From Planctomycetota bacterium (GTDB lineage Bacteria > Planctomycetota > B15-G4), in contig QNBX01000003.1 of NCBI GenBank assembly GCA_003644265.1, positions 7,554 to 71,553 of the forward strand: a stretch of 64,000 nucleotides of DNA, in the 5' to 3' direction. Below the pieces are notes generated by a model that was not told the DNA's origin, did not search any database, and was given only the letters and a program-made list of their open reading frames with translations. A program made the position numbers and the translations under genes. Each line of letters opens with the position of its first letter. Position 1 is the first letter of the stretch. This document shows positions 16,555-23,066 of this stretch, piece after piece.

Positions 16555-17397
16555 TCAGAGCGTCAGCGTGACGTCGCCGGTGTCCGTCTGCTCGCCCACG
16601 CTGACGTCCACGCTGAGCGCTCGCGTCCCGAGTCGCTCGTGCCAGACGCCGAGCTCGTAGCTCCCCGGCGGCAGGCCCTCGAGGGACCAGCGCCCCTCCT
16701 CATCGGTGACGCAGAAGAAGGGGTGCTCCACGACCCCGATCCAGCCCTTCATCCAGGCGTGGATGTCGCACGCCAGCTCGATCATGACCTCCTCGCGCTT
16801 GAACTGCAGCTCGCGCTGGAGCACCTCGCCGGGCATGGCCAGGTTTCGGGCGCGGTTGCGTTTGGGCTTGGTGTGCACGTTGTGCAGCACGCCGTCGCTG
16901 TTGAGCACGCGCAGGGTCTGGCCGGTGACCACACCCACCACACGCGGGCGGTACATGCAGCCGCGTTGGTCCAGCTCCACCACGCCTTTGGGCTCAGGCA
17001 GCTCCCAGCCGTCAAGCCCGCTCCGGACCCACACGAAGGCCCCGGCCAGCGCGCCGTCGCGCACGCGCAGCGACTCGTCAACGTAGCCGCCGGCCTCGCT
17101 CGCGGCGCCCACGCAATAGCTGTCACCGGTGATGAGCAGGGGCTCGGGCGCGGGGGCCGGACTGCCCAGCACGACACGCCCACGCAGCCCGCCGGTGTGC
17201 TCCGGGTCGATGGGCTTGTCCGGGTCAGGGACGACCGCGGACATGCCGCCGCGGCCACTGGCCGCCCCTGCCTCGCCGGGCTGTGCCGCGGGCGCCATCG
17301 ATCCCGCCTGCTCGCCTCCGCAGCTCGCACACCACAGCGCGCACAGCAAGGCCCATGCGACGCCGGCGCCGCGCGCCGATGCTATCGTGCTCGCCAT
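16555..17397 (-). CDS. Cupredoxin-like lipoprotein with carboxypeptidase-regulatory C-terminus
   Basis: ATG 17397 starts a lipoprotein signal (ARGAGVAWALLCALWCASC, lipidated Cys26). A Pro/Gly/Ala-rich linker leads to a domain with H172, H175 (VLHNVHTKP), C210, H213 and M216 (ACDIHAWMKGW), which is the ligand set of a type 1 copper site. Residues about 228-280 (VTDEEGRWSLEGLPPGSYELGVWHE) are a carboxypeptidase-regulatory-like beta sandwich. The role could be periplasmic electron transfer or copper binding; this is inferred from the residues. Its start codon overlaps that of the divergent AhpD-like gene in the palindrome CATG (17395-17398). Confidence 0.8.
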   Translation of the reverse strand: MASTIASARGAGVAWALLCALWCASCGGEQAGSMAPAAQPGEAGAASGRGGMSAVVPDPDKPIDPEHTGGLRGRVVLGSPAPAPEPLLITGDSYCVGAASEAGGYVDESLRVRDGALAGAFVWVRSGLDGWELPEPKGVVELDQRGCMYRPRVVGVVTGQTLRVLNSDGVLHNVHTKPKRNRARNLAMPGEVLQRELQFKREEVMIELACDIHAWMKGWIGVVEHPFFCVTDEEGRWSLEGLPPGSYELGVWHERLGTRALSVDVSVGEQTDTGDVTLTL

Positions 17398-17989
17398 GGC
17401 CTTCATCGACACGACTCCTCCCGCCCAGGCCGAGGGCCGGCTCAAATCGATCTACGATCAGGCCGTCACCCGCGCAGGCCGAGTCTACAAGATCGTCGAG
17501 ATCCAGGGCGCCAACCCGCCTGTGCTGGCCGCGTCCATGGGGCTCTACCGGGCGGTCATGCTCGGCGACTCGCCGCTCACGCGCATCGAGCGCGAGGCCA
17601 TCGCCGTCGTGGTGAGTCGCGCCAACGACTGCTACTACTGAGTTGCCGCGCACCAGGAGGACCTCCGTGCCGAGGTCCACAAACAGCTCAGCAGTGATGA
17701 CCTGCTCGCCGACGACGGCCAGCGCCGCCGGCGCGCCGACGCCTTCGCGACCGACATGGCCTCCCAGGGCAGCGACGCGGCGCCCGACGAGCGCCTGCGC
17801 GCGCTGCTGCGCTACGCCGAGCGCCTGGCCCTCTCCCCGGGTGACGTGAGCGCCGACCACGTGCAGCAGCTGCGCGAGGTGGGCTACGACGACCGGGCCA
17901 TCCACGACGCGGCCCAGACGGTGGCGTACTTCAGCTACATCAACCGCGTGGCGGACGGCCTGGGCGTCGATCCAGAACCCGGCGCCTGA
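17396..17989 (+). CDS. AhpD-like / peroxidase-related enzyme, probable selenoprotein (CxxU, in-frame TGA at 17639)
   Basis: Read through one in-frame TGA, the frame gives a 197-aa protein of the carboxymuconolactone decarboxylase/AhpD superfamily (peroxidase-related branch). The family's redox motif NxCxYCxxAH appears here as NDCYY-TGA-VAAH: C79 is kept and the second Cys codon is TGA (residue 82). Homology continues without shift after it (VAAHQEDLRAEV, ALLRYAERLAL, FSYINRVADGLGV), and a hairpin with GG opening its apical loop starts nine bases after the TGA. A stop codon exactly at a redox Cys position is the classic mark of selenocysteine. If TGA is a stop, the gene is a pseudogene with two fragments (17396-17641 and the rest). 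ATG 17396 shares CATG with the divergent lipoprotein gene. AhpD-type enzymes reduce peroxides or disulfide partners. Confidence 0.82.
17650..17670 (+). promoter_or_regulatory. Candidate bacterial SECIS element
   Basis: GCAC (17650-17653) pairs with GTGC (17667-17670), a CA bulge follows, GGA (17656-17658) pairs with TCC (17664-17666), and the loop is GGACC (17659-17663). The loop begins 17 bases after the TGA and has G at its first two positions, matching the described requirements for SelB recognition. The stem is short, and it is all within coding sequence, as in bacterial selenoprotein mRNAs. Confidence 0.6.
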
Positions 17990-18057: not shown

Positions 18058-18666
18058 CTACGGCGGCGGCCCCGAGTGCATGCGCGGCGCGAAGGGCAGG
18101 CCCGCGATGAGCCGCCCCTCCAGCGCCGCCAGCTCGTCCCAGCGTGCGGCCACGCAGCGCTCGTCGGTGGACTCGCGGGCCAGTTGCAGGAAGAGGGAGC
18201 CGTGACGGGCCTCGGCTTCGCACAGCGAGCGATAGAGCGGGGCCAGCGACGCCAGGGCCTCGCAGTCGGCCAGGGCCGCCATGCGCTCGTGGCTGCGCAG
18301 CTCGATCAGCGCGGACACCAGCAGCGAGTCCAGGAACACGACGTCCGGCGGCCCCCCCCTGCGCGCGGCCGAGAGCAACCCGCGGGCGTAGGGGCTGGGC
18401 AGGTCCTCGCCCAGGCCGGCGCCGCGGGCGTCCAGCTCGCGCAGCACGCGCTGCAGGTGCTCGGTCTCCTCGCGCACCAACGGCATCAGGCGCAGGGCCA
18501 GACCCGGCCGGTCCGAGCTGCGCTTGATCAGGGTCATGGCCGACGCGGCGGCCTTCAGCTCACAGTGGGCGTGGTCGGAGAGCAGGGCCAGGGGCTGGCG
18601 GGCCACCGCGTCCGCCCAGCCCGGCGGCGTGGCCCAGTCCAGTTCATACGAGACGGCGCACGTCAC
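18058..18666 (-). CDS. miaE: tRNA-(ms2io6A)-hydroxylase-like diiron protein (MiaE family)
   Basis: The 202-aa protein begins at GTG 18666, overlapping the Rieske stop as GTGA. The signature PLALLSDHAHCELKAAASAM, then LVREETEHLQRVLREL and LRSHERMAAL and EARHGSLFLQLA, supply the Glu and ExxH ligands of a ferritin-like diiron centre as in MiaE. MiaE hydroxylates the isopentenyl group of the modified adenosine at tRNA position 37 using O2 and electrons. The adjacent Rieske ferredoxin is a plausible electron donor. A run of eight C (18352-18359) lies in the gene. Confidence 0.88.
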   Translation of the reverse strand: MTCAVSYELDWATPPGWADAVARQPLALLSDHAHCELKAAASAMTLIKRSSDRPGLALRLMPLVREETEHLQRVLRELDARGAGLGEDLPSPYARGLLSAARRGGPPDVVFLDSLLVSALIELRSHERMAALADCEALASLAPLYRSLCEAEARHGSLFLQLARESTDERCVAARWDELAALEGRLIAGLPFAPRMHSGPPP

Positions 18667-18971
18667 GGCAGCATCAGCTCTAGCTGGCCATCGCGCTCGC
18701 GCACCTCGAACAGTTCGATGGCGTAGTCGGGCACCATGGTGCAGGCGCCGTTGCGCAAATCGAAGTGCCACAGGTGCTGCGGACAGTCCACGCCCCCATC
18801 GGCCAGCACGCCCTCGGTCAGGTCGGCGTGCACGTGGGGGCAGCGCGCGTCGAAGCCCACCAGCCGGCCCTCCAGGCGACACACGCCGTACAGGCGGCCG
18901 TCCAGCTCGAGCCTCAGCATGGCGCCCTCGACCAGCTCGTGGGCGGCGCCGACCGGGACCGCAGGTGTCAT
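18663..18971 (-). CDS. Rieske [2Fe-2S] ferredoxin-like protein
   Basis: This 102-aa soluble domain carries both halves of the Rieske cluster site, RCPHVHADL and DCPQHLWHFDLRNG (CxH and CxxH), and resembles NirD or dioxygenase ferredoxins. ATG 18971 overlaps the upstream sulfatase stop (ATGA) and its own stop overlaps the miaE start (GTGA), so three proteins are translationally coupled. The tight link to miaE suggests it passes electrons to the diiron hydroxylase; that is inference from the order. Confidence 0.92.
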   Translation of the reverse strand: MTPAVPVGAAHELVEGAMLRLELDGRLYGVCRLEGRLVGFDARCPHVHADLTEGVLADGGVDCPQHLWHFDLRNGACTMVPDYAIELFEVRERDGQLELMLP

Positions 18972-20998
18972 CGCTCGTCTCCGTCGGCGCCGATGTAGCC
19001 GTTGGCGCGCAGGGCCGCCTCGTTGTCCGTGAGCGGCTGCACGTCACCGGGGCGCGCTGCCGCAGAGCTCACGTACCAATCCAGGGCCGCGGCCTCCAGC
19101 GCACGATAGGCAGCGTGCTGCGCCGCGTCCATGTCGCCCGGCAGCAGCGACTCCTGCTCGCCCTGCGGCCGGGTGAGATCGTAGCGCAGCACCGACAGCG
19201 GCGCGGGCCGCTCCTGCCCGGGGCCGTCGCCGCCCAGCTCGAGCACGACCTTGCGGCGCTGCGGATCCTGCGCCGACACCAGGATGCGTTGCGGACCGAA
19301 GAGGTGCGTGCGCGTGAGCGAGAACACCGGCCGACCCTGCTCTGAGCGCGGCAGCAGCGCCCGCGCGCCGCCCGCCACCGGCGGCGCGCCTCCCAGGCGC
19401 AAGAGCGTGTTGGCGAGTGACGCGGACGTCACCGGCTGCGTCACCTCCCCCACTGGAACCCCAGGCCCCACCAGCACCAGCGGCACATGCAGCATGGGCT
19501 CGTTGAGCGCGTAGCCGTGACCGAGGTGGCCCAGCTCGAACAGCTCCTCGCCGTGGTCAGCGGTGATCACAACCAGCGTGCGGTCGTCGAGCCCGCGCAG
19601 CTCCAGGGCCTCGCGCAGGCGCTGCAGCTGGCCGTCGAGGTAGGCCACCTCGCCGTCATAGAGGTCGATCACATGGGCCTGCTCGGCGGGCGTGAGTGGC
19701 GGCTCGTCCTGGCTGTGCAGGCGCTGCGGCAGGTGCCCCGAGAGGTCGCGCGCGGGCACCGGCCCCCGGGCGAAGCGCAGGCGCGCGTCGCCCGGCGCGC
19801 CGTAGGGTGCGTGCGGGTCCATCAGATGCAGGTAGGCAAACCAGCGCGCGTCCGCGAGCTGTCCATCGACCCAGCCCAGCAGCTGATCCAGCATCTCGGA
19901 GGCGTCGGCGCCGCCGGGCTCCGTGGGTCCGTCCCGGTTGACCCAGGTCGAGAAGCCCTGATCGAAGTTGTTGGCCCGTGCCAGCAGCGGGTTGGCCACG
20001 AACGCGCCGCCCACCAGGCCCTGGGCGGTCAGGCCCTCGGCCCAGGTGTCGAGCGCATCCATGAGGTAGCTGCGCGCGTCACCCAGTACGCCGTGGGTGT
20101 TGGGCGGCAGCCCCGTGAAGAGCGAGGCCGTGGCAGGCAGGGTCCACGACGAGGGCGAGATGGCGCGGGTGAAGCGCAGTCCCTCTGCAGCCCAGGCGTC
20201 CAGCTGCGGCGAGGTGGGCCGCGGGTTGCCCCAGGCCGACAGGCGCCCGGCGGCCAGCGTGTCCACGCAGACCACCAACAGGTGCGGACGGGCGGACGAG
20301 GCGCGCTGCCGCGGGACCGCGCGCTGTTGCCGCAGGCTCAGGTGCCACCACACCGGCTCGGCCTGAGGCTCCCCCGGCGCAGGCCCCGTCGCGCCCGCGC
20401 GCGTGGTCTCCAGGCGCAGCGTCAGCGCGCGCCCCTGCTCCGCCGAGAGATCAACCTCGAGCGTGCGCATGAGCCGGTCGAAGGGATGCTCGCGGTCCAT
20501 CTCGCGCACGTACGCGCTGGACAGGGCGGCCCGCTCCTCACCGTCCACCAGCACCCGGAACGTGACCGGGAACGGATCGGCCCGGGACGGATCCTGACGA
20601 TCGACGGGATACACGAAGGTGCGCGCCAGCAGGCGCGCGCCCGGTCCCAGGATCGGTGTGTCCACCTCGAAGGCGCTCTCGGCCCGGGCGTGCAACACGC
20701 TGGAGGACGCGTCCGACGCCAGCTGCCCGAGGGCCTCCTGCTTGTCGAGCCAGGCCGCGGGGTAGCTGCGCAGCGGCCGCTCGGCGTCCTGCCTGAGCAC
20801 CCGGGCGCGCCCCGCGCTGAAGGCCTGCTCGAGATCGAGCAGCAGCTCATCGGAGATCACGGGTGGAAGTTCGCTGTGCGCGGGCCCTGACCCGGACGCC
20901 GGATCGGGCGCCGGATCGGGGCCGCAGCCCAGCGCGCACAGGACGCAGCCCAGCGAGCACAGCGTCAGGGCGAGCAGCCGGTGGCGAAACGGTCGGAT
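18968..20998 (-). CDS. Sulfatase-like hydrolase, probable lipoprotein with non-canonical start
   Basis: An alkaline-phosphatase-superfamily enzyme. Metal motifs are CVDTLAAGRLSAWGN and ITADHGEELFELGHLGH; the nucleophile region SSWTLPATASLFTG has Thr/Ser, with no formylglycine Cys, so phosphatase or phosphotransferase chemistry is possible. The N-terminal about 200 residues are an extra beta-rich domain. The only ordinary start is GTG 20860, yet the open frame continues upstream into a perfect lipoprotein signal (RPFRHRLLALTLCSLGC, then CALGC) and no ATG, GTG or TTG lies before it. I extended to ATC 20998, which has GGAGAG six bases upstream. Use 20860 if only standard starts are accepted. It heads the sulfatase-Rieske-miaE operon. 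Confidence 0.85.
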   Translation of the reverse strand: MRPFRHRLLALTLCSLGCVLCALGCGPDPAPDPASGSGPAHSELPPVISDELLLDLEQAFSAGRARVLRQDAERPLRSYPAAWLDKQEALGQLASDASSSVLHARAESAFEVDTPILGPGARLLARTFVYPVDRQDPSRADPFPVTFRVLVDGEERAALSSAYVREMDREHPFDRLMRTLEVDLSAEQGRALTLRLETTRAGATGPAPGEPQAEPVWWHLSLRQQRAVPRQRASSARPHLLVVCVDTLAAGRLSAWGNPRPTSPQLDAWAAEGLRFTRAISPSSWTLPATASLFTGLPPNTHGVLGDARSYLMDALDTWAEGLTAQGLVGGAFVANPLLARANNFDQGFSTWVNRDGPTEPGGADASEMLDQLLGWVDGQLADARWFAYLHLMDPHAPYGAPGDARLRFARGPVPARDLSGHLPQRLHSQDEPPLTPAEQAHVIDLYDGEVAYLDGQLQRLREALELRGLDDRTLVVITADHGEELFELGHLGHGYALNEPMLHVPLVLVGPGVPVGEVTQPVTSASLANTLLRLGGAPPVAGGARALLPRSEQGRPVFSLTRTHLFGPQRILVSAQDPQRRKVVLELGGDGPGQERPAPLSVLRYDLTRPQGEQESLLPGDMDAAQHAAYRALEAAALDWYVSSAAARPGDVQPLTDNEAALRANGYIGADGDER

Positions 20999-21180
20999 CG
21001 GGACTCTCCAGCGGTCAGGCGATGGCTGCGCGGCGCCCCCCGGCGAGCCCTGGCGGCGTTCAGACGGAATCGAGCGAGCCCCAGGTTAGCCCCCGCCCTC
21101 GCGCCCTGCCATGGCGGCCCGGTCGCCTGCTCCGGCCGGAGGACTCGGCCGCGACCCGGCTAGCAGGTACACTGCCCGCC

Positions 21181-21786
21181 ATGGTCCACTCCATGCCCAC
21201 CCCCGACGCCCCCGACCCCGCAGCCCTCGCCGACATGGCACGACGTCAGAGCTTCGCCGGCGAACGCCGGGTCTTCGTGTTCGGCGACATCAACAGCCGC
21301 GTGGCCGAGCGGGTCGTGAGGCAGCTGCTCGACTACTCCGCGTCCAACCCGGTCGAGCCCATCGACCTGCTGATCAACAGCACCGGCGGCGACGTGGAGG
21401 CGGCCTGCGCCATCATCAACGCCATGCACGGCGTCCCCTGCCGGGTCAACACGGTCTGCATGGGCTTTGCCCAGAGCGCGGCCTGCATCATCCTCATGGC
21501 CGGAACCGGCGTGCGCACCGCCTTCGAGAACTCCGTGCTGCTGATCCATCGCATGGTCTGGGACGACCCGGGCGAGGTCGAGGATGAGCACGGCAACTAC
21601 CTGCCTCCGCCGGATGAGAAGTACGTGGCCCTCTGCCGCCGGCTGGAGAACACCTACCTGGGGCGCTTCCTGAAGCACGACGCCCTGTGGGCCGAGAAGC
21701 AGATCCCCACGGCGATGGACCTGTCCACCGATGACGCTCTGCGCGCCGGGGTCATCGACGGCGTGATCTTCCTCGACCGCGGGTAG
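21181..21786 (+). CDS. ClpP-like serine protease
   Basis: The 201-aa protein follows the ClpP fold: RRVFVFGDINSRVAERVVRQLL, then INSTGGDVEAACAIINAM, the nucleophile Ser99 in GFAQSAACIILMAG and His123 in LLIHRM. The oxyanion strand and length are normal for the family, but the segment after His (WDDPGEVEDEHGNYLPPP) is acidic and unlike the usual ClpP, so it is probably a paralogue rather than the house-keeping subunit. ATG 21181 was chosen; ATG 21193 is also possible. No Clp ATPase is adjacent, but clpS lies about 4 kb away on the other strand. Confidence 0.87.
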   Translation: MVHSMPTPDAPDPAALADMARRQSFAGERRVFVFGDINSRVAERVVRQLLDYSASNPVEPIDLLINSTGGDVEAACAIINAMHGVPCRVNTVCMGFAQSAACIILMAGTGVRTAFENSVLLIHRMVWDDPGEVEDEHGNYLPPPDEKYVALCRRLENTYLGRFLKHDALWAEKQIPTAMDLSTDDALRAGVIDGVIFLDRG

Positions 21787-21977: not shown

Positions 21978-23066
21978 ATGATCCGCAAGGCCATCAAGCA
22001 GTTCATGCTGGGCGTGAAGAGCCCCGCCCAGGCCACCCGCATCCTGGCATCCGAAGCCAAGATGCGCGCCGGCATCCGGACCCTGCGCTCGCTCGAGCTG
22101 GCGGTCACCTGGGTCTGCAACCTCGACTGCGACTTCTGCTACGCCGAAGACCTCATGAAGGCGCAGAACAAGCCGCCGCACATGCCGGTGGACGAGGTGG
22201 CGCGCATCACCCGCGAGGCCCACGACCTGGGCCTGATCCACGTCAACGTCACCGGCGGCGAGCCGCTGGTGCGCAAGGACATCTTCGACGTGGTGGACGC
22301 CATCCCCAAGGACGTGGTGGTCTCGCTGGTGACCAACTCCACGCTGCTCACCAAGGAGAAGGTCGACGGCCTCAAGCGGGCCGGGCTGTCCACCATCCAG
22401 ATGTCGTACGGCAGCTACTATCACAAGAGCTTCAAGCGCGACCTGGCGCGCTACTGCGTCGAGCAAGGCATCAGCGTCACGCTCTCGGTGGTCAACATCC
22501 GCAGCGAACGCGAGAACATCGAGCAGGCCTTCAAGATGTCCGAGGAGGACAACTTCTCGGTGCTGTTCAACTACCCGATGATCTACAAGAACGTCGGGCT
22601 CGACAGCGAGTACTACTGGAAGATGCGCTACCACCCGCGCTGCCGCGAGGACAACCTCTTCTGGTCGGGCAAGGACCGCTGCCCCGCGGGCACGCACAAG
22701 CTCTACGTCACCAACGACGGCGACGTCATGACCTGCGACCGCATCCACGCCATCTACGGCAACGTGCACAAGGAGCCCCTCGCGGTCATCCACAAGCGCA
22801 TGTACGAGCAGTTCATCACGCACAAGAGCTTCTGCCTGCTGGAGACCTGCAAGGACCAGTGGCAGGAGAACAACCAGCGCGCCGCTCGCAACTACTCCCT
22901 CGATCTGCTGGGCACCACCGCCGATCCCTTCAACGTGTTCGAGGGCACGCCGCTGATGGACACCACGGTGGTGGGCTCCACCGTGGCGCAGGAGATGCAC
23001 GCCGCGCGCCGCTCCGCCCGCGACCAGGAGACGGCGGCGGACGAGAAGCAGCCCGCCTCGAGCTGA
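21978..23066 (+). CDS. Radical SAM protein with SPASM-like C-terminus
   Basis: The 362-aa protein has the cluster motif CNLDCDFC (C47, C51, C54) and the SAM-binding GGEP (VTGGEPLVRKD). After residue about 230 a second Cys group (CPAGTHKLYVTNDGDVMTC, then LLETCKDQ) looks like a SPASM auxiliary cluster, common in peptide or cofactor-maturing enzymes. No precursor peptide is evident next to it, so the substrate is unknown. ATG 21978 follows a 191-base gap containing a -10-like TAGACT at 21890. The C-terminal 35 residues are low-complexity and charged. Confidence 0.88.
   Translation: MIRKAIKQFMLGVKSPAQATRILASEAKMRAGIRTLRSLELAVTWVCNLDCDFCYAEDLMKAQNKPPHMPVDEVARITREAHDLGLIHVNVTGGEPLVRKDIFDVVDAIPKDVVVSLVTNSTLLTKEKVDGLKRAGLSTIQMSYGSYYHKSFKRDLARYCVEQGISVTLSVVNIRSERENIEQAFKMSEEDNFSVLFNYPMIYKNVGLDSEYYWKMRYHPRCREDNLFWSGKDRCPAGTHKLYVTNDGDVMTCDRIHAIYGNVHKEPLAVIHKRMYEQFITHKSFCLLETCKDQWQENNQRAARNYSLDLLGTTADPFNVFEGTPLMDTTVVGSTVAQEMHAARRSARDQETAADEKQPASS

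Follow-up and report, generated by a model that had tools for sequence, protein, structure and literature searches.

Gene, frame and neighbourhood

We analysed a 64-kb stretch of planctomycete DNA (the window). An ATG at 17396, a TGA at 17639-17641 and a terminal TGA at 17987-17989 were found to lie in one frame, and translation through the first TGA gives a protein containing NDC79-Y-Y-U82-VAAH86 (Table 1). With Cys as a stand-in at position 82, this protein scored 122.3 bits against the TIGR01926 profile ('peroxidase-related enzyme'; cut-off 81.8) and 38.6 against Pfam CMD (cut-off 23). The AhpD-like assignment and the CxxU motif given in a first-pass annotation of this DNA are borne out. 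Two NCBIfam entries describe related AhpD/CMD-type selenoprotein families; NF041238 (AhpD_rel_CFYUT) matched at 48.1 bits, below its curated cut-off of 175, and NF053654 (YciW-related (seleno)protein) gave no match to the window protein at E <= 0.001. In an alignment of 40 sequences (A3) E67, Y81 and H86 were invariant, and the spacing E-12-C-2-[CU]-3-H is present in the window protein as E67, C79, U82 and H86.

The probable starts of the AhpD-like gene and of its divergent neighbour on the reverse strand overlap in a CATG at 17395-17398. Inspection by eye revealed no obvious Shine-Dalgarno sequence upstream of 17396, and a GTG at 17387 is a possible alternative start.

Table 1. Features in and around the AhpD-like gene (positions in the window)
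Feature	Position	Strand	Remarks
Divergent neighbour, carboxypeptidase-regulatory-like domain	16555..17397	-	Start at 17397 is our choice; Pfam 30.3 bits, below the cut-off of 32.3
AhpD-like (TIGR01926) selenoprotein gene	17396..17989	+	197 residues including Sec82; stop TGA 17987-17989
Glu67, candidate proton relay	17594..17596	+	12 residues before Cys79; invariant in A3
Cys79, first residue of CxxU	17630..17632	+	Nearly invariant in A3 (40 sequences)
In-frame TGA, read as Sec82	17639..17641	+	Aligned codon is TGA in 80/80 loci (best 80 of 363)
His86, candidate catalytic His	17651..17653	+	Four residues after Sec82; invariant in A3
Bacterial SECIS hairpin	17659..17678	+	7-bp stem, 6-nt loop CGUGCC; -11.4 kcal/mol; conserved in near relatives
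Downstream block: MiaE, Rieske, sulfatase (-), ClpP (+)	18058..21786	mixed	Syntenic
Radical SAM/SPASM gene, syntenic marker	21978..23066	+	76-84% identity in five relatives

Five relatives (L001-L005) share a block with the window that comprises the carboxypeptidase-regulatory-like, AhpD-like, MiaE, Rieske, sulfatase, ClpP and radical SAM genes, with some genes missing in some loci. The carboxypeptidase-regulatory-like gene adjoins the AhpD-like gene in 4/5 of them; of the downstream genes, Rieske and ClpP were found in 5/5, MiaE in 4/5 and the sulfatase in 3/5. In a tree the window grouped with these five (SH-aLRT 100). Across phyla no conserved partner gene was detected among the window and 80 further loci, other clusters being present in at most 11/81. 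One cluster found in 62 loci was discarded, as judged by coordinates, as reverse-strand frames running across the AhpD-like gene itself.

Conservation of the in-frame TGA

Scanning genome contigs gave 363 confirmed relatives, from which the best 80 by score (a non-random choice) were taken for comparison. In all 80 of these the aligned codon was TGA, never TAA or TAG, and the frame was conserved on both sides of it at 41-66% identity. The reading frame past the TGA to 17989 is family-like, as the first-pass annotation had described it. By record title these best 80 loci come from ten phyla, a few rows remaining unplaced; such titles can be wrong for metagenome bins. An in-frame stop in the window letters alone would be compatible with a pseudogene, in which a nonsense mutation or a sequencing error has left the TGA as the end of a broken gene. 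The identical TGA in each of the best 80 of 363 loci and the conservation of both flanks argue against this, and we consider it vanishingly improbable.

We found a match in 94 of 246 sampled Planctomycetota genomes, and 90 of the 94 carried the in-frame TGA. At codon level 35/41 rows from this sample had TGA, while Cys was encoded in five and Leu in one; TGA-free matches were deliberately included when the second half of the rows was chosen. At one locus (L113, G097:C155) two TIGR01926-like genes adjoin, the site being TGA in one and TTG (Leu) in the other. In the phylum of the genome G021 (record titled Acidimicrobiia), 8/198 genomes had a match and the codon was TGA in 11/11 loci. We sought a Cys-form control there and found none among these 11 loci, so the Cys-form comparison consists of five sequences (L111, L112, L114, L115, L116). 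A scan of viral contigs found no relative of the AhpD-like gene.

We also compared the TGAs lying in read-through frames of the window with the five syntenic relatives, over 11-21 kb in each. Only the TGA at 17639 was matched by a stop in 5/5; three others were each stop-matched in a single relative. An all-frame read-through scan run without composition correction returned low-complexity noise, and the result given here comes from a stricter rerun.

A conserved hairpin downstream of the TGA

Rules for bacterial SECIS elements given in the Fig. 2 legend of PMC13188914 are a loop of 3-9 nt, a stem of 4-16 bp and a G in the first two loop positions; the same source adds a distance from UGA to loop of 16-37 nt and an energy of -7.5 kcal/mol or lower. 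The hairpin at 17659-17678 falls within all four of these ranges as that source states them (loop 6 nt, stem 7 bp, loop beginning 24 nt after the UGA, -11.4 kcal/mol), and the second position of its loop is G, followed by U. Such fits are not rare in this DNA: of 2500 codon positions tested in seven genes of the window, 356 (14.2%) had one, and at 103 (4.1%) it was equally strong. Among shuffled sequences 30/200 were as stable (z -1.0). Because such fits are common and shuffles fold as well, folding this one sequence gives weak evidence. No Rfam match was obtained in the window at the gathering score.

The conservation of the hairpin among near relatives is, by contrast with the single fold, strong evidence. 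For hairpin and codon counts we used 101 of the 116 TGA-form sequences, namely the window, the 80 loci and 20 of the 35 TGA rows from the Planctomycetota sample; 15 more distant TGA-form paralogues were left out. The 51 bases following the TGA aligned without gaps in these 101 sequences (93 distinct). The inner six pairs (columns 22-27 and 34-39, corresponding to window 17660-17677, with one further pair outside) were paired in 94.1% of cells, and sliding one arm of the hairpin gave at most 52.9%. With the 93 distinct sequences, the fraction of cells paired, the number of both-side changes and the covariation score were each reached by 0/500 shuffles; two of five covariation measures, those counting pairs or types, were reached by 27/500. 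All six pairs were kept in 81 of the 101 sequences and not all of them in the other 20. Compensatory changes were seen from CTC/GAG to TTC/GAA (L062, L091), replacing Leu by Phe, and from GAC..GTC to GAT..ATC (e.g. L041, L046, L050, L102), replacing Val by Ile.

Codon choice within the hairpin was similarly restricted. The Leu codon of the stem was CTC in 97/97 genes with Leu at this position (36.5 expected from the remaining Leu codons of these genes). At the loop, the Arg codon was CGG or CGT in 98/99 (37.4 expected from the same genes' other codons); in these codon counts, as in the pairing counts, the sequences are related and hence not independent. None of the five Cys-form sequences had CTC at the corresponding codon, which in L116 does not encode Leu.

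Outside the near relatives the picture was different. All six pairs were kept in 0/15 of the distant TGA-form rows, with CTC in 5/15, and in the phylum of G021 they were kept in 4/11 loci, with CTC in 7/11. If the distant TGA-bearing paralogues are selenoproteins, they must use other hairpins. The more distant paralogues L117-L130 and L136-L141 have TGA at the codon without the common hairpin, and often CTG in place of CTC.

The first-pass annotation had placed a SECIS element at 17650-17670. A hairpin of this kind does exist downstream of the TGA, and this part of the claim stood. Its position did not, the conserved hairpin being the next one downstream, at 17659-17678. The upstream candidate reached -5.6 kcal/mol as drawn and -7.3 kcal/mol as the best fold of the stretch. 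Across the 93 distinct sequences only 53.3% of its cells were paired, without covariation, and 495/500 shuffles paired at least as well, so it was rejected.

In six of the 101 sequences (L036, L058, L066, L092, L095, L096) the best hairpin lies in an upstream register, with its loop 17 nt after the UGA. This suggests two overlapping SECIS registers and a switch between them. The shifted 7-bp register, which is best in these 6/101 sequences, failed as a general structure.

Taken as a whole, a broader reading of the near clade can be offered only tentatively, and we lean against accepting all of its parts together. Sec would be the normal state of the enzyme in some ten phyla and a near-invariant SECIS core, GACCUC-CGKGNN-GAGGUC, would be kept across them. 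The RNA constraint would be strong enough to fix codons and would be accompanied by replacements in the protein, of Leu by Phe where GAG becomes GAA and of Val by Ile where GAC becomes GAU, and distant TGA-bearing paralogues would use other sequences.

Selenocysteine machinery in genomes with the TGA form

The genomes of the five syntenic relatives (L001-L005) contained selA, selB and selD in 5/5 and a tRNA-Sec gene (selC) of at least 70 bits in 5/5. In 30 of the 80 genomes, selB was over the cut-off in 28, as against 2/14 control genomes, and tRNA-Sec scored above 60 bits in 27; selB and/or tRNA-Sec was present in 30/30. Among the 246 Planctomycetota genomes selB was found in 85/90 with the TGA form versus 76/156 of the others (odds ratio 17.9, Fisher p 6.5e-15, a p value that is optimistic because of kinship and incomplete assemblies). 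Four of the five TGA-form Planctomycetota without selB had tRNA-Sec, and in one of the 90 TGA-form genomes (G088) neither selB nor tRNA-Sec was found. The 64-kb window gave no match to the selA, selB and selD proteins of two relatives and contained no tRNA gene. The first-pass annotation had called the gene a probable selenoprotein; the sel genes of all five syntenic relatives, the TGA in all of the best 80 of 363 loci and the hairpin conserved in near relatives uphold this call. We infer Sec insertion in the source organism.

In three of the relatives selA adjoins a selD gene that itself contains an in-frame TGA (G002:C23, G004:C72, G005:C15); the selD genes of G001 and G003 are without TGA. 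From the in-frame TGA in these three, SelD is likely to be a selenoprotein in the planctomycetes G002, G004 and G005.

Database proteins and gene calling

A search of protein databases found 124 relatives, of which 120 were listed. Among the 120 listed, 63 had a match to the window protein that started no more than three codons after the TGA and 33 one that started further on (96 in total after the TGA), and three ended at the TGA, one of them being the window's own entry. Twenty spanned the TGA and one was of another kind. Gene callers thus split the gene, as had been predicted.

The 63 starts close behind the TGA are what would be seen if the locus encoded two proteins, an N-terminal part that stops at the TGA and a C-terminal part that restarts just after it. 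The codon following the TGA is GTT in the window, however, and ATG, GTG or TTG in only 21/101 sequences, so that a restart is unlikely; moreover, neither TAA nor TAG takes the place of the TGA in any of the best 80 of 363 loci, and the active-site motif would be severed. We regard the probability of two separate proteins as negligible.

In the 20 full-length relatives the residue at the Sec position was Cys in seven, Trp in nine (P0008, P0017, P0018, P0019, P0025, P0033, P0036, P0057, P0067), Gly in one (P0007), Ser in one and a gap in two. The Trp and Gly entries could be taken to mean that the TGA is read as Trp, Gly or Cys, through a changed code or leaky decoding, rather than as Sec. To judge from the protein entries, they probably reflect TGA codons to which metagenome gene callers applied code 4 or 25. 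TGA serves as the terminator of 7/10 neighbouring gene models and of the AhpD-like gene itself in 45/80 loci, and the TGA at 17639 is the only one stop-matched in 5/5 syntenic relatives. The sel genes that accompany the TGA form, and the hairpin conserved in near relatives, also point to Sec, and insertion of another amino acid appears very improbable. Tests of the pseudogene, the split gene and the changed code led us to reject all three.

In the database, many C-terminal pieces of the AhpD-like family have an additional rubredoxin/rubrerythrin-like segment at their C-terminus (PF21349 or PF23458 in the precomputed annotation), among them P0070, P0071, P0074, P0080, P0084, P0085 and P0091-P0093; in P0080 the rubrerythrin match was weak and below the cut-off. 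This segment raises the possibility that an electron carrier is fused to some AhpD-like selenoproteins.

Predicted structure and catalysis

An AlphaFold2 model of the protein, with Cys at position 82, had a mean pLDDT of 97.2 and a pTM of 0.92. Its best matches in the PDB were AhpD-like, peroxidase-related proteins (3c1l, 2prr, 6k40, 2oyo and 2pfx), which share the fold with TM-scores of 0.76-0.82 (query length) at 26-30% identity. Where the window protein has CYYU, 3c1l has CYYC, and in the alignments of 3c1l and 2oyo the Sec position is occupied by Cys. The TGA at 17639-17641 stands exactly where the first-pass annotation had put it, in place of the CxxC motif's second Cys.

Mycobacterium tuberculosis AhpD (1gu9) is a distant match (17% identity, rank 49 among structural matches). 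We take its CxxC to have a Glu 12 residues before it and a His four residues after the pair, which equals the spacing in the window protein. The catalytic roles of Glu67, Cys79, Sec82 and His86 are assigned on the presumption that they follow the M. tuberculosis enzyme, in which Sec82 would align with what we take to be the Cys that attacks peroxide. We know of no measured activity for the AhpD-like TIGR01926 subfamily.

Sec82 together with Cys79, Glu67 and His86 most likely reduces peroxides. SelB carrying Sec-tRNA would bind the mRNA hairpin at 17659-17678 and deliver Sec at the UGA at 17639-17641, and the second UGA (17987), far from the hairpin, would end translation. Within the helical fold Sec82 would join Cys79 in a selenenyl-sulfide redox pair, and Glu67 and His86 would act as a putative proton relay; peroxide would be attacked by Sec82 and resolved by Cys79, and the pair would be re-reduced by a thiol donor. 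In this scheme the chemistry of the redox pair, the peroxide as substrate and the thiol as donor are all putative.

A genuine Sec enzyme might instead catalyse a reaction other than peroxide reduction, for instance a reductive dehalogenation or a different thiol redox step. The debrominase Bmp8 (6ohi, 6ohj) and Sestrin-2 also match this fold, so that other redox reactions are possible with it, and among the nearest solved relatives several bear the title uncharacterized peroxidase-related. Against this, the solved structures closest to the window protein belong to AhpD-like or 'antioxidant defense' proteins, and the E-12-C-2-U-3-H spacing is presumably that of AhpD. We judge a different reaction to be unlikely, though with an appreciable chance of being correct.

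We are nearly certain of the joint reading that the window gene encodes an AhpD-like enzyme with Sec82, its UGA decoded by SelB via the hairpin at 17659-17678 and its Sec in redox partnership with Cys79.

Relation to known selenoproteins

AhpD-like selenoproteins with a CxxU motif have been in print since 2005, when 27 such sequences (COG2128) were reported from the Sargasso Sea (PMC1088965), in keeping with the remark in the first-pass annotation that they were known from marine metagenomes. The Global Ocean Sampling study of 2008 counted 299 of 'AhpD-like 1', again COG2128 (PMC2398784), and AhpD-like CxxU selenoproteins are also described in some genomes (PMC1794560). A 2026 catalogue lists AhpD-like proteins under TIGR01926 with CxxU, giving MCB9421940.1 as an example (PMC13188914), and the use of Sec in planctomycetes is in print (PMC4807772). 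As far as these sources describe the catalogued AhpD-like selenoproteins, the window gene resembles them in family name and model (COG2128; TIGR01926), in the CxxU motif and in having a UGA with a downstream bacterial hairpin. It differs from them as a new instance in a planctomycete clade, the likeness being one of family name, model and motif. In the open-licence literature we found no paper dedicated to the AhpD-like selenoprotein family in Planctomycetota; the candidate table in the supplement of PMC4807772 may include it.

In view of this record, what is new here is the instance in a planctomycete clade and not the kind. The CxxU AhpD-like Sec enzyme is a kind already known, and the window gene is a well-supported new instance of it.

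For the locus itself, a gene that callers cut in two is corrected. More widely, the results point to a large group of Sec enzymes, frequently annotated wrongly, in Planctomycetota, Gemmatimonadota, Chloroflexota, Acidobacteriota and others. In the aligned sequences a bacterial SECIS element can be followed across phyla with unusual clarity, and the alignment could be used to train selenoprotein finders.
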